From Pseudomonas sp. (GTDB lineage Bacteria > Pseudomonadota > Gammaproteobacteria > Pseudomonadales > Pseudomonadaceae): 64,000 nt of DNA. The stretch spans positions 1 through 64,000 of the forward strand of contig NZ_JAUXMX010000024.1 of assembly GCF_030683065.1 (NCBI RefSeq), read 5' to 3'. Of this stretch, positions 20,306-35,476 are shown one piece after another (positions within the stretch are counted from its first letter, which is position 1; the number at the start of each line of letters is the position of its first letter). The notes below the pieces were generated by a model, which worked only from the letters and a program-made list of their open reading frames with translations, did not search any database and was not told the origin of the DNA. The position numbers and the translations under genes were made by a program.

Positions 20306-22669
20306 ATGGACAAGAAGTCGCTTTCCGAGCGGGACATCTGCAGCAAGTACATCGCCCCAGCCGTCCAGCAAGCTGGCTGGGACATGCACAAACAGGTACG
20401 TGAGGAAGTCAGCTTTACCAAAGGCCGCATCATCGTCCGCGGCAAGCTGCACAGCCGGGGCGAATCGCGGCGTGCCGACTTCATCCTCTATCACCAGGCC
20501 AACCTGCCCATCGCCGTGATCGAGGCCAAGGACAACAAGCACACTGTGGGCTCCGGCATGCAGCAAGCCCTGGGCTATGCCGAGGCGCTGGATGTGCCGT
20601 TCGTGTTCTCCAGCAATGGCGATGGCTTTCTGTTTCACGACCGCAGCGGCACCGGCGCGCAGGTCGAAACCGAGCTGCGCCTCGACCAGTTCCCCAGCCC
20701 GACTGAACTCTGGCAGCGCTACTGCCAATGGAAGGGCCTGGATAACGCAGCCCAGCACAAAATCGCCGCGCCCTATTACGACGACGGCTCCGGGCGCCTG
20801 CCGCGCTACTACCAGAGCAACGCCATCAACCGCACGGTCGAGGCCGTGGCGCGCGGGCAGGATCGCGTGCTGCTGGTCATGGCCACCGGCACCGGCAAGA
20901 CCTACACCGCCTTCCAGATCATCTGGCGGCTGTGGAAATCCAAGCAGAAGAAACGCATCCTGTTTTTGGCCGACCGCAACATCCTGGTCGACCAGACCAA
21001 GAACAACGACTTCAAGCCGTTCGGCCAGGCGATGACCAAGATCGCCAAACGTCAGATCGACACCTCCTACGAGATCTACCTGTCGCTCTATCAGGCCGTC
21101 ACCGGCGCTGAAGAAGAGATGAACATCTACAAGCAGTTCTCCCGCGACTTCTTTGACCTGATCGTGATCGACGAATGCCACCGTGGCAGCGCCGCCGAGG
21201 ATTCCGCCTGGCGCGAGATTCTCGACTATTTCTCCAGCGCCACCCATGTCGGCCTCACCGCCACGCCGAAGGAAACCAAAGAGGTATCGAGCATCACCTA
21301 CTTCGGTGACCCGGTGTACAGCTACACCTTGAAGCAAGGCATCGAAGACGGCTTTCTCGCCCCCTACAAAGTGGTGCGCATCGACTTCGACAAAGACCTG
21401 CAAGGCTGGCGGCCGCCCAAGGGCATGCTCGACAAGAACGGCGAGCTGATCGAAGACCGCATCTACAACCTCAAGGACATGGACCGCACCCTGGTCATCG
21501 AGGCGCGCACCCAACTGGTGGCGCAGAAGGTCACCGAGTTCCTCAAGGCCACTGATCCGTTCCAGAAAACCATCGTCTTCTGCGACGACATCAACCACGC
21601 CGAGCGCATGCGCCAGGCCCTGGTCAACCTAAACCCCGAGCGTGTGGCCGAGAACCGCAAATACGTGATGCGCATCACCGGCGATGAGCAAGAGGGCAAG
21701 GCCGAGCTGGACAACTTTATCAACCCGGAAGCGCGCTACCCGGTCATTGCCACCACCAGCAAGCTGATGACCACCGGCGTCGATGCACAGACCTGCAAAC
21801 TGATCGTGCTCGACCAGCACATCAAGTCGATGACCGAGTTCAAGCAGATCATCGGCCGTGGCACCCGCATCAACGAGGACTACGGCAAATACTGGTTCAC
21901 CATCATGGACTTCAAGAAGGCCACCGAGCTGTTTGCCGACCCGGCCTTCGACGGTGACCCGGTGGTGGTCTATGCCCCCGAGGGCGATGAGCCGCCCGTG
22001 CCGCCTGACGATTTACTCGAAGGCGATGGCATCAGTGCCGGCAGCGATGCCGAGGGCGATGACCTGGAATTTACCGGAGATGACGGCGGCAAGAAGCGCA
22101 TCAAGTACGTCATCGACAGCATCCCGATCTACGTCATCGCCGAGCGCGTGCAGTATTACGGCCCGGATGGCCGGCTGATCACCGAATCGCTGCACGACTA
22201 CACCCGCGCCTGCGTGCAAAAACAGTTCGCCTCGCTGGATGACTTCCTGCGCCGCTGGAGTGATGCCGAGCAGAAGAAAGCCATCATCGACGAAATGGCC
22301 GCCCAGGGCGTGATGTGGGAAGCCCTGGCCGAAGAAGTGGAAAAGAAACAGGGCAAGCCCCTCGATCCGTTCGATTTGATCTGCCACGTCGCCTTCGACC
22401 AACCACCACTGTCGCGTAAAGAGCGCGCCGAGCAGGTGAAAAAGCGCAACTACTTCGCCAAGTATTCCGGCGCAGCCCGCCAGGTGCTGGAAGCGCTGCT
22501 GGATAAATACGCCGACACCGGCATCGAGCATATCGAGGACATCAAGATCCTCCAGCTCGACCCCTTCAGCCAGATCGGTGCGCCCATCGAACTGGTCAAG
22601 GCCTTTGGCGGCAAGGCCGGTTACAACCAGGCCATCCATGAACTGGAAGACGCGCTTTACGCCAGTTAG
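20306..22669 (+). CDS. hsdR: Type I restriction enzyme R subunit
   Basis: This 787-aa motor and nuclease subunit belongs to a type I restriction system that translocates and cuts unmethylated DNA. The N-terminal PD-(D/E)xK nuclease is intact: Asp58 (RRADFIL) and Glu73-x-Lys75 (VIEAKD). Superfamily 2 helicase motifs follow, with Walker A ATGTGKT (192-198), DECH (289-292), the TATP motif (GLTATPKE) and motif VI ([12 protein letters not shown]). Length fits the shorter EcoEI-like R subunits. It is first in the order R-M-S, separated from hsdM by 175 bp that contain REP sequences. All catalytic motifs are present, so it is probably active. Confidence 0.95.
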
Positions 22670-22677
22670 CCGAACGC

Positions 22678-22762
22678 TTGTAGGGTGCGCCGTGCGCACC
22701 AGGGCCAGTTCGTAGGATGGGTCGGGCCGCGCAGGTTGAGCGCAGCGATACCCATCAAAGGC
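22678..22762. repeat. REP-type sequences between hsdR and hsdM
   Basis: GTAGGGTGCGCCGTGCGCACC is the inverse of the core seen seven times in the tandem array at 33795-34170. GTAGGATGGGTCGGGCCGC...GCGATACCCATC is another familiar Pseudomonas intergenic repeat. Their presence inside the hsd locus separates hsdR from hsdM. Confidence 0.7.
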
Positions 22763-22844
22763 TACCCCAAGGTGCCCATGCAACCCATAACGGCTAAATA
22801 GCCTTTACAATCCCCCGCTTTGCCGCACCCACCGAGAATTCGTC

Positions 22845-24329
22845 ATGTCGATCAGCTCCACCATCAAATCCATCCAGGACATCATGCGCAAAGACGTCGG
22901 CGTCGATGGCGACGCCCAGCGCATTGGCCAGTTGGTCTGGCTGCTGTTCCTGAAGATTTTCGATGACCGCGAGCTGGAATGGGAGCTGATGGACGACAGT
23001 TACCAATCGCCGATCCCCGAGAGCTGCCGCTGGCGCACCTGGGCCGCCGACCCGGAAGGCATGACCGGTGACGACCTCAAGGGCTTTATCGACAACAACC
23101 TGTTCCCGCAGCTGCAGAACCTGCACGAGTACAGCAACACGCCATCGGCCTTCGTGGTGCGCGGCGTGTTTGAAGATGCCTACAACTACATGAAGTCCGG
23201 CCAGCTGCTGCGCCAGGTGATCAACAAGATTCAGCAAGGCGTGGACTTCAACAAAGCCCAGGAACGCCACGAGTTCGGCAATCTCTACGAGCAACTGCTG
23301 CGCGACCTGCAAAACGCTGGTAACGCCGGTGAGTTCTATACCCCGCGCCCGGTCACCGAATTTATGGTGCGCATGGTCGACCCCAAGCTGGAAGAAAAGG
23401 TCATGGACCCGGCCTGCGGCACCGGCGGCTTTCTCACCTGCGCCATCGAGCACAAGCGCAGCCGCTATGTAAAAACCGCCGAGGACGAACGCACCCTGCA
23501 AGCGAGCATCTTCGGCGTGGAGAAAAAGCCGCTGCCGCACCTGCTGGCCACCACCAATATGATCCTGCACGGCATCGAGGTGCCGAGCCAGATCCGCCAC
23601 GACAACACCCTGAGCAAACCGCTGATCAGCTGGGGCCCGAGTGAGCGCGTGCACTGCATCGTCGCCAACCCGCCGTTCGGCGGCATGGAAGAAGACGGCA
23701 TCGAAACCAACTTTCCCGCCACCTTCCGCACCCGCGAAACCGCCGACCTGTTTCTGGTGCTGATCATGCAGCTGCTCAAGGACGGTGGCCGTGCCGCCGT
23801 GGTGCTGCCCGATGGCTTCCTGTTCGGCGAAGGCATCAAGAGCCGCATCAAGGAAAAGCTGCTGACCGAGTGCAACCTGCACACCATCGTTCGCCTGCCC
23901 AACGGCGTATTCAACCCCTACACCGGCATCAAGACCAACCTGCTGTTCTTCACCAAAGGCACGCCGACCAAACAGGTGTGGTTCTACGAGCATCAGTACC
24001 CGGCCGGCGTTAAGAACTACTCGAAAACCCGCCCCATGCGCATCGAAGAATTCGCCGTGGAACAAGACTGGTGGGGCAGCGAGGCCGATGGCTTTGCCGC
24101 ACGGGTGGAGAACGAATTCGCCTGGAAGGTCGGCGTCGAAGAGCTGCAAGCGCGCAACTGGAACCTGGACTGCAAAAACCCGCATATCGGCGAACAGATC
24201 AGCCACGACCCGGACGAGTTGCTGCGCAACTACGCCAGGCTGCAAGGCGAAATCAGCGAGCTGCGCGACCAGCTTAAGGCGGTGCTGGCTGAAGCCCTTG
24301 CCTCTGATAAAGAGGAGCGCCAGGTATGA
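22845..24329 (+). CDS. hsdM: Type I DNA methyltransferase M subunit
   Basis: This 494-aa N6-adenine methylase subunit has an N-terminal helical HsdM_N domain (about residues 5-130) and the catalytic domain. Motif I is DPACGTGGF (188-196) and motif IV is NPPF (275-278). With HsdS it methylates the bipartite target, and with HsdR it forms the restriction complex. The ATG is well placed at 22845. hsdS overlaps by four bases (ATGA), implying coupled translation and balanced M:S stoichiometry. Confidence 0.95.
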   Translation: MSISSTIKSIQDIMRKDVGVDGDAQRIGQLVWLLFLKIFDDRELEWELMDDSYQSPIPESCRWRTWAADPEGMTGDDLKGFIDNNLFPQLQNLHEYSNTPSAFVVRGVFEDAYNYMKSGQLLRQVINKIQQGVDFNKAQERHEFGNLYEQLLRDLQNAGNAGEFYTPRPVTEFMVRMVDPKLEEKVMDPACGTGGFLTCAIEHKRSRYVKTAEDERTLQASIFGVEKKPLPHLLATTNMILHGIEVPSQIRHDNTLSKPLISWGPSERVHCIVANPPFGGMEEDGIETNFPATFRTRETADLFLVLIMQLLKDGGRAAVVLPDGFLFGEGIKSRIKEKLLTECNLHTIVRLPNGVFNPYTGIKTNLLFFTKGTPTKQVWFYEHQYPAGVKNYSKTRPMRIEEFAVEQDWWGSEADGFAARVENEFAWKVGVEELQARNWNLDCKNPHIGEQISHDPDELLRNYARLQGEISELRDQLKAVLAEALASDKEERQV

Positions 24330-25909
24330 CAGCGCTGCTCACCGAAAATCTGCCGCTACTGGCCGGTGCGCCTAATGGCATCAAAAAGCTGCGTGAGCTG
24401 ATTCTGGAGCTGGCGGTGCGGGGCAGGTTGCTTGAGCAGAACTCCAGTGGTGAGCCTGCCAGCGAGCTGTTGGAAAGTATTGCGAAAGAGAAAACGTTAC
24501 TCATTGAAAATAAGACCATTCGAAATGGAAAGCCGTTACCCGATATCGAACAAGATGAAATGCAGTTCAAGCTACCCATTGGCTGGGAATGGGTACGACT
24601 AGGTCAGATCGGTGATTGGGGGGCTGGGGCAACTCCTGCTAGAGGGAACTCAAGTTACTACGGCGGTGAAATGCCTTGGTTCAAATCGGGCGAGCTGGTT
24701 GCAGACTTCATTTCAGATTCGGACGAGTCGGTAACTGATCTAGCGCTTAAAGAGTGCTCATTGCGTCGAAATAAACCGGGAGACGTACTCATTGCAATGT
24801 ACGGCGCGACCATTGGTAAAACGGCAATCTTGAGCGTGGAAGGCACAACAAATCAGGCTGTCTGCGCCTGCACGCCGTTCAATGGTGTGTTCAATAGATA
24901 TTTGCTGCTTACCCTCAAAGCGCTTAAATCGAACTTCATTGGACAAGGCGCTGGTGGAGCGCAGCCAAACATCTCACGAGAAAAAATCGTCGCCACGGTA
25001 ACAGGACTTCCTCCTCTCGCCGAACAACACCGCATCGTCGCCAAAGTCGATGAACTGATGGCCCTCTGCGACAGCCTGGAAGCCCAGCAGGCCGACGCCG
25101 AAAGCACCCATACCCAACTGGTGCAAGCGCTGCTCGACAGCTTGACCCAAACCAGCGACGCCACCGAGTTCGCCACCAACTGGCAACGCCTGGCCGAACA
25201 CTTCCACACCCTATTCACCACCGAACCCAGCATCGACGCCCTCAAGCAAACATTCCTTTGCTTAGCTGCCGATGGACGCCTGGTTAGTTCAGATGTGCCT
25301 GCAGCTCATTTGTCTCTTTCAGATGTGATTGATGGTGACTCGCTGAACGGTTCGTCCAAAAAGCCACAAGACACACCAAGCGCTGTAGAAATTCTTCGAA
25401 TAAGCGCAGGCACCGGAGTTGCGGACTTCCTTACTGATGAATACGAGCACAAGTGGGCAGACGTTACGGAGGCGGAAATACAAAAATTCCTTTTGGCTAA
25501 AGACGATCTCCTAGCCTGCCGATTCAATGGAAACCTTCACTACGTCGGAGCTTTTTCCCTCTACTGCGGCAACAGAGGTGTGCCTCAAATTTTCCCAGAC
25601 AAACTCATCCGATTCCGGGCTGACCGCAATAAAGCTTCGCCTCATTACCTCAAATACATATTGAACGCAGCTCCTGCGCGAGCGCAGATTGAGTCGTTTT
25701 GCGCGACCACCGTCGGAAATATCGGTATCAGTGCCAAGAATCTAAAAACGATAAAACTACGCCTGCCCTCGCTGGAAGAACAAAGCAATATTGTTAACCG
25801 TCTAGATCAGCTTATGGCCCTCTGCGACCAACTGAAAACCCGCCTAACCCAGGCCCGCCAGCTCAACGAACAACTGGCCAGCACCCTGGTCGAGCAGGCG
25901 GTGGCGTGA
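24326..25909 (+). CDS. hsdS: Type I specificity subunit
   Basis: This 527-aa target-recognition subunit has two target-recognition domains (about residues 65-215 and 320-480), each followed by a conserved helical spacer. The spacers read LPPLAEQHRIVAKVDELMALCD and LRLPSLEEQSNIVNRLDQLMALCD. These near-repeats are the usual HsdS dimer-like symmetry. The recognition domains are visibly lower in GC than the conserved parts, consistent with domain swapping by transfer. The start overlaps the hsdM stop and the end overlaps the next gene. DNA specificity cannot be predicted from the sequence alone. Confidence 0.93.
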   Translation: MTALLTENLPLLAGAPNGIKKLRELILELAVRGRLLEQNSSGEPASELLESIAKEKTLLIENKTIRNGKPLPDIEQDEMQFKLPIGWEWVRLGQIGDWGAGATPARGNSSYYGGEMPWFKSGELVADFISDSDESVTDLALKECSLRRNKPGDVLIAMYGATIGKTAILSVEGTTNQAVCACTPFNGVFNRYLLLTLKALKSNFIGQGAGGAQPNISREKIVATVTGLPPLAEQHRIVAKVDELMALCDSLEAQQADAESTHTQLVQALLDSLTQTSDATEFATNWQRLAEHFHTLFTTEPSIDALKQTFLCLAADGRLVSSDVPAAHLSLSDVIDGDSLNGSSKKPQDTPSAVEILRISAGTGVADFLTDEYEHKWADVTEAEIQKFLLAKDDLLACRFNGNLHYVGAFSLYCGNRGVPQIFPDKLIRFRADRNKASPHYLKYILNAAPARAQIESFCATTVGNIGISAKNLKTIKLRLPSLEEQSNIVNRLDQLMALCDQLKTRLTQARQLNEQLASTLVEQAVA

Positions 25910-26616
25910 TGAGCGAAACCTTCAATATCTACTGCGACGAGTCCTGCCATCTGGAGAACGATGGCCAGAAGGCCATGGTACTGGGTGCCGTCTGGTGCCC
26001 GGAGGCCAAGCGTCTGGAGATTGCCCAACGTCTGCGTGAAATTAAGGTCAGGCACAAGCTACCGGCGGATTTCGAGATCAAGTGGACCAAGGTGGGTTCG
26101 ACCAAGCTGCAGTTCTACCTGGACTGCATCGACTATTTCTTCGATGACGACGATCTGCATTTCCGCGCCCTGATCGTGGCCGACAAGGCGCGCCTCAATC
26201 ATCAGCAGTTCCGGCAGAGTCATGATGACTGGTACTACAAGATGTACTTCTCGATGCTCAAGACCATCTTCGAGCCAGATGCCGGTTATCACGTTTATAT
26301 CGACATCAAGGACACCCTGGGGCATGAGAAGGTCGCCAAGCTCCATGAGGTGCTGGCCCACAATGCCTATGACTTCTCGCGCAGGGTGATTCGCCGGGTG
26401 CAACGCATCCACTCCCATGAAGCCGAACAACTGCAGCTGGCTGACTTGCTGATCGGCGCGCTGTCCTATCTGCATCGCGGGCTTGCCGGCAGCGAAGCCA
26501 AGCAGCGCCTGATCGAACGTATCCGTGAGCGCAGCCGCTACAACCTGAAGCAGAACACGCTGCTGCGTGAGTCCAAGTTCAACCTGTTCCTTTGGAACGG
26601 GAGCAATGGGGTATGA
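25909..26616 (+). CDS. DUF3800 protein (predicted RNase H-fold nuclease) coupled to hsdS
   Basis: This 235-aa protein starts with the DUF3800 hallmark IYCDESCHLEN. Further acidic residues follow (VYIDIKDTLGH) and a C-terminal EAEQLQLADLLIGALSY helix. DUF3800 is considered related to the RNase H fold, so a nuclease role is inferred from family literature. The start codon overlaps the hsdS stop (TGATG). A GTG three bases earlier is possible. Tight overlap on both sides places it in the hsd operon. It may be an accessory defence nuclease or a passenger gene. No experimental role is known to me. Confidence 0.8.
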   Translation: MSETFNIYCDESCHLENDGQKAMVLGAVWCPEAKRLEIAQRLREIKVRHKLPADFEIKWTKVGSTKLQFYLDCIDYFFDDDDLHFRALIVADKARLNHQQFRQSHDDWYYKMYFSMLKTIFEPDAGYHVYIDIKDTLGHEKVAKLHEVLAHNAYDFSRRVIRRVQRIHSHEAEQLQLADLLIGALSYLHRGLAGSEAKQRLIERIRERSRYNLKQNTLLRESKFNLFLWNGSNGV

Positions 26617-29520: not shown

Positions 29521-31146
29521 ATGTTGAAGATTAAATTTGTCGGCGCAATCGAAGGTGTCAGCGGCTCGTGCACCTGGCTGCATCACACTGACTCCGATAC
29601 CCAGTTTCTGGTGGATTGCGGCATGCATCAGGGCAATGAGCGCGAGGAATGGGCCAATCGCCAGGCGTTTCCATTCCAGGCTGCGCGCCTCAAGTATGTG
29701 TTACTGACTCATGCGCATATCGATCACTGCGGCCTGCTGCCCCGGCTGGTGCGTGAAGGCTTTACCGGCCAGGTGTATGCCACCCGCGCGACCCGCGAAC
29801 TCACCGAGCTGATGCTGCTGGACGCTGCTCGGGTAAGTGGCATGTTTACGGAACAGGAGGTGAAGCAGATTCACTGGAGCATTCTGGATGATGACCAGGG
29901 CTTCAAGTGGGGGCGCAGCATGCGCTTGGCTGAAGGCGTCTGGATGGCCTACTTGCGCAGTAGCCATATCCTAGGAGCCTGCCTGATCAGCATTGCCTGG
30001 AAAGTGGGTGGGGAGAATCGCTCCATCTGCTTCAGTGGTGACGTAGGCTGTCAGACCGATGAGAACGCTTACCTGCCATTGATGAAGAGCGGCCAACATC
30101 CCTTTGCCGACACGGACTACATCGTTGTCGAGTCCACTTATGGCGGGCGCGTGCGAGCACAGGAGCATCAAGATTCGCAACTGCGACTGGCACGCCTGGC
30201 TGAAGTCATCGCCCACACCTTGTTCGTTAAAGGCGGCAAGGTCTTGATGCCCGCCTTCTCGCTGCATCGTGCTCAGGAATTATTGATGGACGTATTGCAG
30301 TGGATGAAAACTAACCTGCCAGCACACGAACAAGGACGCGAGCTGAGTCGCTACGACGATGACTTCCCCTTGGTAGCGAATGTCCATGCGCCACTGGGTC
30401 ACGCGGTGACTCAGGTGTATGCCAAACACCTCTGCAGCAAGTCGCCCAACGGCAAGTTCAAATACCTGAACGCTGAGCTGTGTAAGTCGCTGGCGATGGA
30501 TGCCGACGCCATTCAAGGCATGCTGCAGCGTTTGGTCGAGCATGGGAGTTTCAAAGTGACCGCCGAGCGCTACCTGAGCATGACCAAGCCCAAGCAACCC
30601 TCCAACTTTGACGCCGATATCGTGATTGCCAGCGCAGGCATGTGCGACAACGGTCCGGTGGTCAGTTACCTGGAGCGCTGGGGGAGCGATCCGCGTAACA
30701 CCGTGATCCTCACGGGCTATCAGTCTGCCGGCAGCAAAGGTGCAGAGCTTATGCCGCGTGCTACAGCATCCCCTGCGCCCATGGATAGCCTTTCAGCTGG
30801 CCAGGCAGAGGTGATTGATATGTCGCCGTATTACTCGGCACATGCCGATCAACAGATGCTGCTGGATTTCCTGTTCCGTACCGATGGCTTTGACTGTAAG
30901 AAACCCGCGACGCTGCTGATCAACCACGGCAACCCGGAGAGCAAATACGCGCTGAGCAAAGCCGTTCAGATGCGTGCGGACAGTCGAAAGGATAATGATC
31001 GTCAAATCAAAGCAGTGAGGATTGCAGATGCACGCTGGCTGAACCTCGACAGTGGCGAGGTGATTGAGCAAAGCCATAGTGAGCAACAATTGCTGAGCGA
31101 ACTTGAGGCTTTGCGATTGCAGGTCAAGCGCCTCAGCGATAGCTAA
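29521..31146 (+). CDS. Beta-CASP metallo-beta-lactamase nuclease (RNA-processing type)
   Basis: This 541-aa protein has the zinc site HAHIDH (residues 64-69), a GDVGC aspartate/bridging segment and the CPSF/RNase J-like VVESTYGGR motif. The beta-CASP domain follows, with VLMPAFSLHRAQELL, IASAGMCDNGPVVSYLERW, a YYSAHADQQMLLDF histidine and a final INHGNPESK. This architecture belongs to the family that cleaves RNA (and in some branches DNA) endo- or exonucleolytically. AAAGGAAAAG precedes the ATG. It sits next to the NYN ribonuclease gene, so an RNA-directed function of this end of the island is plausible. Bacterial members of this subgroup also occur in core genomes. Confidence 0.88.
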   Translation: MLKIKFVGAIEGVSGSCTWLHHTDSDTQFLVDCGMHQGNEREEWANRQAFPFQAARLKYVLLTHAHIDHCGLLPRLVREGFTGQVYATRATRELTELMLLDAARVSGMFTEQEVKQIHWSILDDDQGFKWGRSMRLAEGVWMAYLRSSHILGACLISIAWKVGGENRSICFSGDVGCQTDENAYLPLMKSGQHPFADTDYIVVESTYGGRVRAQEHQDSQLRLARLAEVIAHTLFVKGGKVLMPAFSLHRAQELLMDVLQWMKTNLPAHEQGRELSRYDDDFPLVANVHAPLGHAVTQVYAKHLCSKSPNGKFKYLNAELCKSLAMDADAIQGMLQRLVEHGSFKVTAERYLSMTKPKQPSNFDADIVIASAGMCDNGPVVSYLERWGSDPRNTVILTGYQSAGSKGAELMPRATASPAPMDSLSAGQAEVIDMSPYYSAHADQQMLLDFLFRTDGFDCKKPATLLINHGNPESKYALSKAVQMRADSRKDNDRQIKAVRIADARWLNLDSGEVIEQSHSEQQLLSELEALRLQVKRLSDS

Positions 31147-31222: not shown

Positions 31223-31449
31223 GTTCAGGCACAGTAGGCGCTTATCAAGCGTGATGGCTTGCCTGTTCTTGTGACCCAGACCTATCCCAAACCCAAATTC
31301 CGCAAAGAGGAGAAGAGGCAGGCCTACCCAGTGACCGGCTGTAACCCCATCTTTATAAAAGGTTGACGGTCCCGTCATGCCCTATTAGCCTCTTTCCCAA
31401 CAACTAACCCTCACGACCGGCGTGGCTTGACCATCTGGTTGGAGGGGGG

Positions 31450-31474
31450 AAAAGCCGGCACTAGCCGGTTTTTT
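31450..31474 (+). terminator. Hairpin with U-tract in the NYN leader (possible attenuator)
   Basis: AAAAGCCGGCACTAGCCGGTTTTTT has the form of an intrinsic terminator and lies 20 bp upstream of the NYN start codon. It either ends transcription from the beta-CASP side or attenuates the NYN transcript itself. Confidence 0.6.
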
Positions 31475-31493
31475 CGTTTCTGGAGTACAAGAA

Positions 31494-32456
31494 ATGCTAG
31501 GCGCGCCTCAGCGAGTGCCTCTGCGTGCCCGCACCTACATCGACGGATACAACTTCTACTACGGCTGCCTGCGTGGCACTCCCCACAAGTGGCTGGATCT
31601 GCTGCCCCTCTTCGTAAAACACATCCTGCCGTCTGCGCTGGTCAAGGATGGCGATGGCCATATCCGGCAATCGACCCTGCTCCCCTCCCCCTCGATCAAG
31701 TTCTTCACCGCGAAGATCATCGAGTCCGTTGCCCGGGCTCCCGACTCTATATCGTCTCAGGCGCGCTACCACACCGCGCTGCGCAAGCTGCATGACGGTC
31801 GAATCGAGCTGATCGAAGGCTACTACGCCGTCAACAAGATGAAGGTGAAGATCGTCGACGCCGAGGATCCCGACAGGGCTCCCCGCGAATGCCAGGAAAT
31901 CCAAGCCTGGAAGGTCGAGGAGAAGCAAAGCGACGTGAACTTGGCCCTGCAGGTCTACCACGACGCGATCACCGGGCAGATCGATCATGCTGTCATCGTG
32001 ACCAATGACACGGACATTGCGCCGGCACTGGAGATGATCAGAGCCCATACCAATGTGTTGATCGGCGTGGTTGTGCCGACTACCGACCACACGCGCCCGC
32101 CAAACACCGACTTGGTGAAGCTGGCCCATTGGACTCGCCGGCATATCAACGCCAATGAGCTGGCTGCCTGCCAATTGCCCCGAGTCATCCAGGGCAAGCG
32201 CCCGACAACCAAACCTGAATCCTGGTACGGGCAACCGGAGCTGCTGCGGGAGATCCTGGAACTGGCAATCCCGGTACGAGGCAACAAGGCGGCAGCCTTC
32301 AAATGGATGGAGCAGCCTAACCAGTACCTGGATGGCGAGCGCCCGATCGAGCTCGCTGAGACAGTCGAGGGCGCGAACCGCGTGCTGGAGTACATTCGGA
32401 ACTGGATTGCGCAGCAGGCGCAACCGGGCGCACCGGATGAGCAAAACATGCGCTAA
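31494..32456 (+). CDS. NYN-domain ribonuclease with C-terminal MbcA/ParS-like domain
   Basis: This 320-aa protein has an N-terminal NYN (PIN-like) nuclease domain of about 215 residues. The acidic metal-binding residues are intact: Asp17 (RTYIDGYNFYYG), Asp147 (KQSDVNLALQVYHDA), and Asp172 and Asp174 (VIVTNDTDIAPAL). After a linker, residues about 254-306 (AAAFKWMEQPNQYLDGERPIELAETVEGANRVLEYIRNW) resemble the toxin-binding domain of Xre/MbcA/ParS-type antitoxins. That combination is unusual. The start has GGAG nine bases upstream, preceded by a terminator-like hairpin. The nuclease assignment is firm, and the C-terminal assignment is from pattern only. Confidence 0.75.
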   Translation: MLGAPQRVPLRARTYIDGYNFYYGCLRGTPHKWLDLLPLFVKHILPSALVKDGDGHIRQSTLLPSPSIKFFTAKIIESVARAPDSISSQARYHTALRKLHDGRIELIEGYYAVNKMKVKIVDAEDPDRAPRECQEIQAWKVEEKQSDVNLALQVYHDAITGQIDHAVIVTNDTDIAPALEMIRAHTNVLIGVVVPTTDHTRPPNTDLVKLAHWTRRHINANELAACQLPRVIQGKRPTTKPESWYGQPELLREILELAIPVRGNKAAAFKWMEQPNQYLDGERPIELAETVEGANRVLEYIRNWIAQQAQPGAPDEQNMR

Positions 32457-33725: not shown

Positions 33726-33794
33726 ACAGGGCTCCTGGCGGTTCGAGTGGGATGCTTGCCCGGATTGCATCAGGGCTACGGTTCACAGCAGCGG

Positions 33795-34170
33795 GCATCG
33801 GCAGTGCCATGTGTACCAGCCTTGGTGCGCGCGGCGCACCCTACGCGGGCAGTGCCATGTGTACCAGCCTGGGCAGTGCCATGTGTACCGGCCTTGGTGC
33901 GCACGGCGCACCCTACGCATCGGCAGCGCCATGTGTACCAGCCTTGGTGCGCGCGGCGCACCCTACGCGGGCAGTGCCATGCGTGCCGGCCTTGGTGCGC
34001 ACGGCGCACCCTACGCGGGCAGTGCCATGTGTGCCAGCCTTGGTGCGCACGGCGCACCCTACGCATCGGCAGCGCCATGTGTGCCATGTGTGCCGGCCTT
34101 GGTGCGCGCGGCGCACCCTACGCGGGCAGTGCCAGGCGTGCCTGCATTGGTGCGCACGGCGCACCCTACG
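33795..34170. repeat. Tandem array of seven REP-core units
   Basis: Seven copies of TTGGTGCGC(G/A)CGGCGCACCCTACG occur in direct orientation, spaced by 48-62 bp. The linkers read GC(GGG/ATCG)GCAGYGCCATGTGTRCC. One unit has an extra 26-bp partial copy and another a 9-bp internal duplication. The core is self-complementary around GGTGCGC/GCGCACC and matches a single REP-type sequence between hsdR and hsdM. The array fills the gap between the AIM24-like and QEGLA genes. The variable units imply slippage or unequal exchange. Confidence 0.9.
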
Positions 34171-34180
34171 ACGTGCAGCT

Positions 34181-35476
34181 TTACAGGATGTTGGAGTAGT
34201 CGGCTTCGATCCGGTCGAGGCTCAGGTGATTGAGGAAGTTGGAAAAGCACATCCAGGCCGACAGGGCATTCAGGTCCTGGAACTGCTGCGGCAGGTACTT
34301 GGGCGGTTGCACCAGGCCTTCGTCCACCAGTTTGCGCAGGGTGCGCATGTCTTCCAGGGTGGTCTTGCCGCAGAACAACAAGGGGATCTGTTCCAGCTTG
34401 CCTTTGCGCACGGCCAGCTGGATGTAGTTGTAGATCATGATGAAGCCCTTGAGGTAGGACAGATCCTTGGTGAACGGCAAACCTTGTGGCACCGAGCCGC
34501 GGAACACCCGGCTGGCGTTGCTGTAGCCGTCTTCCAGGCCATAACCCTGCTCGCGGAAGAACTCGAACACGTCGAGAAAATCGGCGCCCTCCTCGGCCAT
34601 GTGAATGGCGCGGGTGCGGTTGGTGAGCTTGCGCAGGCGGCTCGGGTAGGAGGCAAAGGTGATCACTTCCATCAGAATCGCCAAGCCTTCCTGGGTCACG
34701 GTGGACGATGGCGGCCCCTTGGACAGGAAGGTGCAGATCGGCTGGTTCAGGCCATTCAGGGTGGTGCCGACATGCACCAGGCCTTCATGCACTTCCAGCG
34801 CCCGCACGTCACGTTCATTGAACATGGCGTCGCTGCGAATCTTGATGTAGTCAGCGCCGGCGGCGGCATCGGCGAGAATGCCATCGGACTCGAACACCCG
34901 GATGGTGCTCTCCGCTTCGCCGAACACCTTATTCAGGCGACTCTGCAACAGGCTGACCGCGGTCTTGGCATTGAGGGTTTTCGCTTCGTCCTTGAGGTCG
35001 CCACGGTCGGCGATGTTGTTCAGGTAGTCGGACAGCATCAGGCCCAGGTCGGACAGGGTCGGATCACCGGCATGAAAGGCATCGGAGGCGGCGCCGTAGA
35101 GATCCTGGGAGATCAGGCCGAATTCGGTGGTGCCCCGCGCGTCGAGCATGCGGATAACCATGCGGTATTCGCGACACATGCGCCGCATGATCTGCCCAAC
35201 GGGATTGAACTGTCCAAGCTGGCGAGTGACATCGCGTTCGATGTTCTGGAACTCGAGCTTTTTCGCGCTGGAGTCAAAGCCCAGTGGCCGGCTCAGGTAG
35301 TAAGCCTGGTCGACCGCCGGCAGCACCTTGCCCTTGGCCTTGAGAAAACCCTCGCGAATGCTGTCGTCCCACTTCACCGCGTCCAGTATGCGGATCGGCG
35401 TCTGCGCCTCGACAATCCGCTCAGATAACGCCCGCACGATCAGTTGATAGTCGTCCAACCCGCTGTGACTGTTCAT
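34181..35476 (-). CDS. QEGLA-motif protein (DUF1704, putative metallopeptidase-like)
   Basis: This 431-aa cytoplasmic protein has the naming motif TQEGLAILME (about residues 249-258) and a preceding VHEGLVHVGTTLNG segment in which His-Glu-x-x-x-His resembles a metallopeptidase helix. Databases call this group flavohemoglobin expression-modulating QEGLA motif protein (DUF1704). The start at 35476 (MNSHSGLDDYQ) has GAGGGA upstream. The ORF start at 35527 lacks one. The stop codon lies only 11 bp from the tandem array. Confidence 0.85.
   Translation of the reverse strand: MNSHSGLDDYQLIVRALSERIVEAQTPIRILDAVKWDDSIREGFLKAKGKVLPAVDQAYYLSRPLGFDSSAKKLEFQNIERDVTRQLGQFNPVGQIMRRMCREYRMVIRMLDARGTTEFGLISQDLYGAASDAFHAGDPTLSDLGLMLSDYLNNIADRGDLKDEAKTLNAKTAVSLLQSRLNKVFGEAESTIRVFESDGILADAAAGADYIKIRSDAMFNERDVRALEVHEGLVHVGTTLNGLNQPICTFLSKGPPSSTVTQEGLAILMEVITFASYPSRLRKLTNRTRAIHMAEEGADFLDVFEFFREQGYGLEDGYSNASRVFRGSVPQGLPFTKDLSYLKGFIMIYNYIQLAVRKGKLEQIPLLFCGKTTLEDMRTLRKLVDEGLVQPPKYLPQQFQDLNALSAWMCFSNFLNHLSLDRIEADYSNIL

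Follow-up and report, generated by a model that had tools for sequence, protein, structure and literature searches.

A gene in the window, a 64,000-nucleotide stretch of DNA from Pseudomonas sp., encodes a predicted NYN-family RNase fused to a C-terminal domain of the Xre/MbcA/ParS antitoxin type, and it is preceded by a conserved, structured leader RNA that ends in an intrinsic terminator. Given that this anatomy is that of type III loci and of AbiF with RCd22, we lean towards reading the locus as a toxin-antitoxin module that resembles type III: the leader RNA would restrain the NYN RNase, and the MbcA-type domain would be a later assembly module. An initial annotation, made from the sequence alone, assigned the protein domains correctly and overlooked the leader RNA directly upstream of the gene. 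The features of the locus are collected in Table 1.

Table 1. Features of the NYN locus, in window coordinates.
Feature	Position	Strand	Basis
Candidate sigma-70-like promoter, TTGACG (31363-31368) and TATTAG (31383-31388)	31363..31388	+	Sequence reading; upstream comparison of 47 leaders
Leader RNA R1, conserved; 78 nt in the model	31398..31475	+	Folding, covariation, model match
Single-stranded 5' motif ACAACUAA, consensus ACNACUNA	31400..31407	+	Comparison of 47 leaders
Hairpin 1 of leader RNA, 39 nt	31408..31446	+	Covariation; single folds
Intrinsic terminator of leader; U-run 31469-31474, ends 19 nt before start codon	31448..31475	+	Homologue versus control-ORF counts
Shine-Dalgarno GGAG, between leader terminator and ATG	31482..31485	+	Sequence reading
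NYN-MbcA_C fusion gene, 320 aa, intact ORF	31494..32456	+	ORF reading, Pfam, AlphaFold2
NYN (PIN-like) RNase domain, residues ~10-244	31521..32225	+	Pfam PF01936, PADLOC HEC-09, MARF1 NYN fold, residue invariance
Xre/MbcA/ParS-type C-terminal domain, residues 248-309	32235..32420	+	PF09722 score, structure matches
Pfam PF09722 match, residues 263-301	32280-32396	+	Pfam

The NYN domain is intact, as had been claimed. PF01936 scores 26.2 bits against a Pfam cut-off of 24.2, and the N-terminus of the full-length AlphaFold2 model (26 homologues; pLDDT 92.7, pTM 0.88) matches the NYN domain of MARF1 in a Foldseek search. Residues D17, E143, D147, D172 and D174 are acidic and invariant in all 26 homologues aligned, so that D147 and D172 had rightly been singled out as key positions. 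The window protein has both the NYN fold and the conserved acidic active site of an NYN/PIN-like RNase. A search of solved structures by sequence with the fusion protein gave no match, and no resemblance to ToxN, in sequence or fold, was found by Pfam, solved-structure search or Foldseek.

Assignment of the C-terminus to the MbcA/ParS type is also confirmed. The Xre_MbcA_ParS_C profile (PF09722) scores 42.8 bits (E 5e-11, cut-off 24.5), and the fusion locus ranks first, with 46.2 bits, when the whole 4.65-Mb genome is searched with this profile. The C-terminus of the full model matches Xre-type antitoxins in Foldseek. When the C-terminal 85 residues are modelled alone, the top 13 PDB matches are all Xre, VPA0769, NatR, MbcA or ParS antitoxin chains, with probabilities of 0.77-1.00 and only noise afterwards, and the first eleven superimpose with an RMSD of 1.2-2.5 A over 54-63 residues. 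The short length of the domain keeps the E-values of the isolated model weak (0.04-0.5), and there is no competing fold. Chance resemblance is ruled out by the Pfam score and the structure matches, and the contrary outcome that the initial annotation had named, a match to generic helical bundles only with no score against MbcA/ParS profiles, is not what is seen. Of the 26 rows in the homologue alignment, 14 are fusions and 11 match PF09722; the fused proteins lack the helix-turn-helix (HTH) of Xre.

Dimerisation or assembly, and not the neutralisation of a RES toxin, is the most likely role of the C-terminal domain. Xre antitoxins are dimeric in Xre-RES complexes (PMC12204516), and dimerisation or assembly, the role that we prefer, needs no partner toxin. 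Related domains occur elsewhere. The genome that contains the window also has an ORF for a lone Xre/MbcA/ParS C-terminal domain (L002:1489-1692), without HTH and with no RES gene adjoining. On plasmid pG20, a gene 1.6 kb from an NYN fusion (L104:7518-8096) encodes an antitoxin-like protein in which a sub-threshold MazE-like N-terminus is joined to an Xre HTH and to this same type of C-terminal domain.

The leader was found by comparing the 5' flanks of homologues, in which a block is kept while the neighbouring genes differ. That the leader is simply the terminator of the upstream gene can be ruled out, as it stays with the NYN gene even where the neighbours are different. In the window, positions 31398-31500 have a minimum free energy of -46.3 kcal/mol, and the folding energy of the leader lies at a z of -5.1 relative to shuffled sequences. 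The candidate promoter is weak in the window, with a 14-nt spacer, and is missed by a consensus scan; among the 47 leaders compared, relatives have a better -10 element (GATACT, TAATACT or TATAAT-like) at the same place as TATTAG. Over 21 homologues, 89.6% of the cells in the leader structure are paired, and 8 pairs are changed on both sides, all in hairpin 1. The covariation score for these homologues is 0.194, compared to 0.129 for shuffles (0/500 reach the observed score, a count that is not a probability, the homologues compared being non-independent) and no higher than 0.126 when the structure is slid. The window leader matches the leader model with an E-value of 5e-19, the sole strong match in the genome, and no Rfam family was matched by the leader RNA.

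The terminator is nearly universal. It lies no more than 120 nt upstream of the gene in 49/58 NYN homologues, compared to 1/261 control ORFs, defined as ORFs of at least 200 aa in the same loci, and it ends a short and nearly constant distance before the start codon. In 46/47 leaders, from alpha-, beta- and gammaproteobacteria, the distance from ACNACUNA to the U-run is 68-74 nt, and a -10-like box usually lies immediately ahead of the motif. As background, the motif lies that close in 32/1142 U-runs across 31 loci, several of which are near-copies of one another; most of these 32 belong to the leaders themselves, and the rate falls to about 0.5% once the leaders are set aside. Each of 23 leaders folded singly (23/23) gives an unpaired 5' end, then a hairpin, then the terminator hairpin.

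The same order of elements is recovered outside the sample. A protein search of 369 gammaproteobacterial genomes gave 11 matches, including the genome of the window, and the hairpin and terminator are present in 7/7 of the out-of-sample relatives with a readable 5' end, with an ACNAC-type end in 6/7. A covariance model built from the fusion leaders alone recovers, through the RNA by itself, NYN-only loci in Pseudomonadaceae at 31-36% protein identity. Its weak matches there, most of them under about 40 bits and under 70 nt in length, are largely bare terminators and were counted only if an NYN gene followed. A relative on a Leptospira plasmid keeps the order of the elements, but its U-run is weaker and it lacks the exact motif. 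A recognisable leader is absent from Actinobacterial and other distant homologues (L034, L039, L044, L115, L121), and the exact leader pattern gave 0 matches in viral contigs.

Some leaders are repeated. In E. coli plasmids of 4.6 kb and ColE1 type, the leader consists of a hairpin of about 33 nt repeated four times in tandem (spacing 33, 33 and 29 nt; fold z -6.6), followed by the terminator and the NYN gene. The leaders of Klebsiella plasmids have two similar segments ahead of the terminator, and more than one hairpin is present on a Serratia plasmid. The annotated NYN starts on some of the E. coli plasmids (L107, L108, L110) sit upstream, within the repeat leader, such that the RNA is hidden from gene annotation.

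Other leaders have outlived their gene. In L018 and L035 the leader is intact and the NYN core has been lost through internal deletions, and further fusion genes are frameshifted beside an intact leader. Assembly errors may account for some of these frameshifts. At L063:1501-1578 an isolated leader, of the NYN-only type, has no NYN gene within 1.5 kb. In two Pseudomonadaceae genomes (L060:1306-1383 and L061:1501-1578) the leader is found ahead of a gene for an N-acetyltransferase. The leader is absent from the two plasmid relatives checked, so that recombination seems likelier here than a second partner family.

The NYN-MbcA_C fusion forms one clade within the NYN family (support 99/96), with members in alpha-, beta- and gammaproteobacteria, and has a single origin. 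NYN-only relatives are also preceded by the leader, and the leader is therefore older than the fusion. On this sequence comparison, the ancestral unit is leader RNA, terminator and NYN RNase, with the MbcA/ParS-type domain a late addition that was gained once, in the ancestor of the clade. The initial annotation offered three readings, a self-contained toxin, a nuclease recruited by a distant toxin and a general dimer module, all of which centred on the C-terminal domain; that focus does not fit a domain that came late to a unit whose leader also precedes homologues without it. The self-contained toxin can be kept if it is modified, its likely restraint being RNA. The architecture had also been called new. 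NCBI already annotates members in many genomes by domain name, and the claim holds to the extent that no description of the fusion was found in the searchable literature (preprints and most subscription journals lie outside the search); nor, in that literature, was any NYN protein found to be linked with an RNA antitoxin or a type III toxin-antitoxin system.

The absence of an adjoining toxin gene, noted at the outset for the window, extends to 30 related loci. Across the 31 fusion and NYN loci, no RES/MbcT/ParT-type toxin gene of the kind expected beside a type II antitoxin is adjacent, no protein family adjoins the gene in at least three loci, and there is no homologue of the RES/Xre pair encoded elsewhere in the genome of the window. 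NYN genes are found on small mobilizable plasmids, on conjugative plasmids and in one prophage. Relatives, mostly NYN-only, occur in 419/72,556 plasmid records, many on small mobilizable plasmids of Klebsiella and E. coli.

Several neighbours of the window gene can be described. Genes for type I restriction-modification (hsdR, hsdM and hsdS) and a DUF3800 gene (20306-26616) lie 5-12 kb upstream, and a DUF3800 gene is also carried by the E. coli plasmid L101 together with its NYN gene. The gene that adjoins the NYN gene (29521-31146) encodes a beta-CASP metallo-beta-lactamase RNase and is not conserved with it; its product resembles aCPSF1 and type VII Cas14 at 212 bits, far below the equivalog cut-off. 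A GC-rich repeat block with repeated peptides in several frames (33780-34230) lies between an AIM24-family gene and a MATCAP gene.

In the mechanism that we propose, one promoter would drive a small structured RNA with an intrinsic terminator, followed by an NYN-family endoribonuclease. Most transcripts would end at the terminator, giving an abundant RNA of about 75 nt with an unpaired ACNACUNA end and a hairpin, which would bind and block the NYN RNase, and a minority of read-through transcripts would allow the enzyme to be made. Loss of the short-lived RNA, for instance upon transcription shut-off by a phage or upon loss of the plasmid, would release the RNase, which would then cleave cellular or phage RNA. 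Besides the conserved leader with its terminator, the tandem repeats on E. coli plasmids and the invariant catalytic residues, we count in favour of RNA restraint that leaders persist beside broken genes, that there is no conserved protein partner, that the genes are found on mobile DNA and that the family is listed as HEC-09. Counted against it are the single RNA unit in most relatives, a layout that equally fits a transcription attenuator, a link of HEC-09 with susceptibility and the leaderless distant homologues.

The main rival to RNA restraint is an autoregulated, cis-acting attenuator, in which the NYN RNase or another factor would bind or cut the leader and so set read-through of the terminator; the RNA would not inhibit the enzyme, which could be a housekeeping or a defence nuclease. 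Leaders are used in this way by many riboswitches and autoregulated RNases, and both the near-constant short distance from terminator to start codon and the strongly conserved 5' end of the leader would suit such control. However, the sole antiterminator pairing that can be drawn, between leader positions 20-24 and 57-61, has no double changes and does not rise above shuffles, and was rejected because covariation support is absent. An attenuator also has no need of the four hairpin repeats in the E. coli members, and leaders that remain where the gene is broken or absent speak against it, so we regard it as possible but doubtful. Another rival is a stand-alone antiphage effector, an NYN RNase that would by itself sense infection and degrade RNA, the leader only keeping expression low. 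Every member tested matches the PADLOC candidate HEC-09: profile PDLC04163 scores 74.2 bits over residues 11-244 of the window protein, and 6/6 diverse relatives match. The nearby genes for type I restriction-modification, the DUF3800 protein and the beta-CASP RNase also suit this explanation, as does the position of the relative on pPBPR1, which adjoins cas3. Yet it does not account for the repeats, nor for a leader whose 5' end and length are widely conserved, and in one survey of P. syringae HEC-09 correlated with phage susceptibility, not resistance (PMC12447246). We judge it improbable as a full explanation, and an antiphage role is compatible with RNA restraint as the biological role of the module.

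Two further explanations turn on the protein itself. In the idea of recruitment by a distant toxin, the fusion is an orphan antitoxin-nuclease hybrid that has kept the ability to bind a RES-type toxin through its C-terminal domain and in this way delivers the nuclease to that toxin; the fold of the domain is intact, and one RES protein is encoded in the genome. The sole RES gene, however, is already paired with a neighbouring Xre antitoxin that has both HTH and C-terminal domain, no RES gene lies near any fusion, the fused proteins have no Xre HTH, and the unit of leader and RNase is older than the domain, leaving this idea unsupported and very unlikely. Hardly credible is the reading of the protein as a metabolic enzyme, 6-hydroxy-3-succinoylpyridine (HSP) hydroxylase (HspA/NicB). 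Several annotations state it: the plasmid records H1-H6 carry the name nicB or HSP hydroxylase, and a Klebsiella relative is called HspA. In addition, purified HspA of P. putida has been reported to be active with NADH (PMC6122326). Against this stand the NYN fold and its invariant acidic active site, and a distribution on small plasmids that fits no pathway. HspA, judged here by its published description, is portrayed in a review as unlike any protein of known function, without detailed kinetics and not induced by nicotine, whereas the flavin enzyme HspB is well characterised (PMC6122326). Members of the family are otherwise recorded as "antitoxin Xre/MbcA/ParS toxin-binding domain-containing protein" or "NYN domain-containing protein". 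The names nicB and HspA on NYN relatives (H1-H6 and H71, for example L104:5001-5957) are probably a propagated misannotation.

If RNA does restrain the RNase, an NYN toxin family would join the few known RNA-antitoxin systems, one already widespread on plasmids of Klebsiella and E. coli. Restraint by RNA would also suggest how the orphan defence candidate HEC-09 might work and would correct the naming of proteins annotated as nicotine-pathway enzymes. The fusion clade is a case of an antitoxin-type domain built into a predicted nuclease with no protein antitoxin alongside. Our opinion is evenly balanced on a broader generalization, a family of RNA-restrained toxins that would extend from Leptospira to the plasmids of E. 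coli, Klebsiella and Pseudomonas. In each, an NYN/PIN-like RNase would be held by a compact RNA of near-constant length with a ACNACUNA end, repeated in some members, and one lineage would have taken a type II antitoxin domain into its toxin to give a type II/type III hybrid.

An NYN-type enzyme in the layout of an RNA-restrained toxin appears to be new relative to the searchable literature, and the layout itself has precedents. Type III loci consist of a single promoter, one or more RNA units, an intrinsic terminator and an RNase gene (PMC5086642). ToxIN, CptIN and TenpIN share this layout with the NYN loci, and the E. coli members, whose leader repeats in tandem every 33 nt or so, match the published arrangement (PMC5086642). 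The toxins of those systems are of the ToxN family, whereas the candidate toxin here is an NYN protein rather than one of the ToxN/CptN/TenpN families, and the antitoxin is repeated there but mostly single here, with one unit in the window and most relatives and four in the E. coli relatives. RNA-antitoxin systems are not limited to ToxN, a point made by AbiF and AvcD. AvcID is a type III system that places a non-ToxN toxin, a deoxycytidylate deaminase, under an RNA antitoxin (PMC10511110); it differs from the NYN loci in its deaminase toxin, in its longer RNA (~171-300 nt) and in having no terminator predicted between RNA and toxin. The Xre-RES, MbcTA, ParST and NatRT systems have type II antitoxins whose toxin-binding fold is that of the C-terminal domain of the window protein, which in contrast has no HTH and no partner toxin gene and is fused to a predicted RNase. 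The NYN family matches the profile of the PADLOC candidate defence gene HEC-09, a protein-only model, such that the leader RNA and the MbcA-type fusion fall outside it. In C. difficile, RCd22, with two motifs of 33-35 nt and a terminator, is the RNA antitoxin of AbiF, an Abi_2/AbiD/F-family protein (PMC12373285). Its locus resembles the NYN loci in promoter, structured RNA with hairpin motifs, intrinsic terminator, single toxin-like gene and location on mobile DNA (PMC12373285). The AbiF protein is of the Abi_2 type, which is linked to ancestral Cas13, whereas that of the NYN loci is NYN/PIN-like; the RNA motifs are unrelated, and activity has been demonstrated for AbiF and RCd22, whereas the NYN locus is known from sequence.
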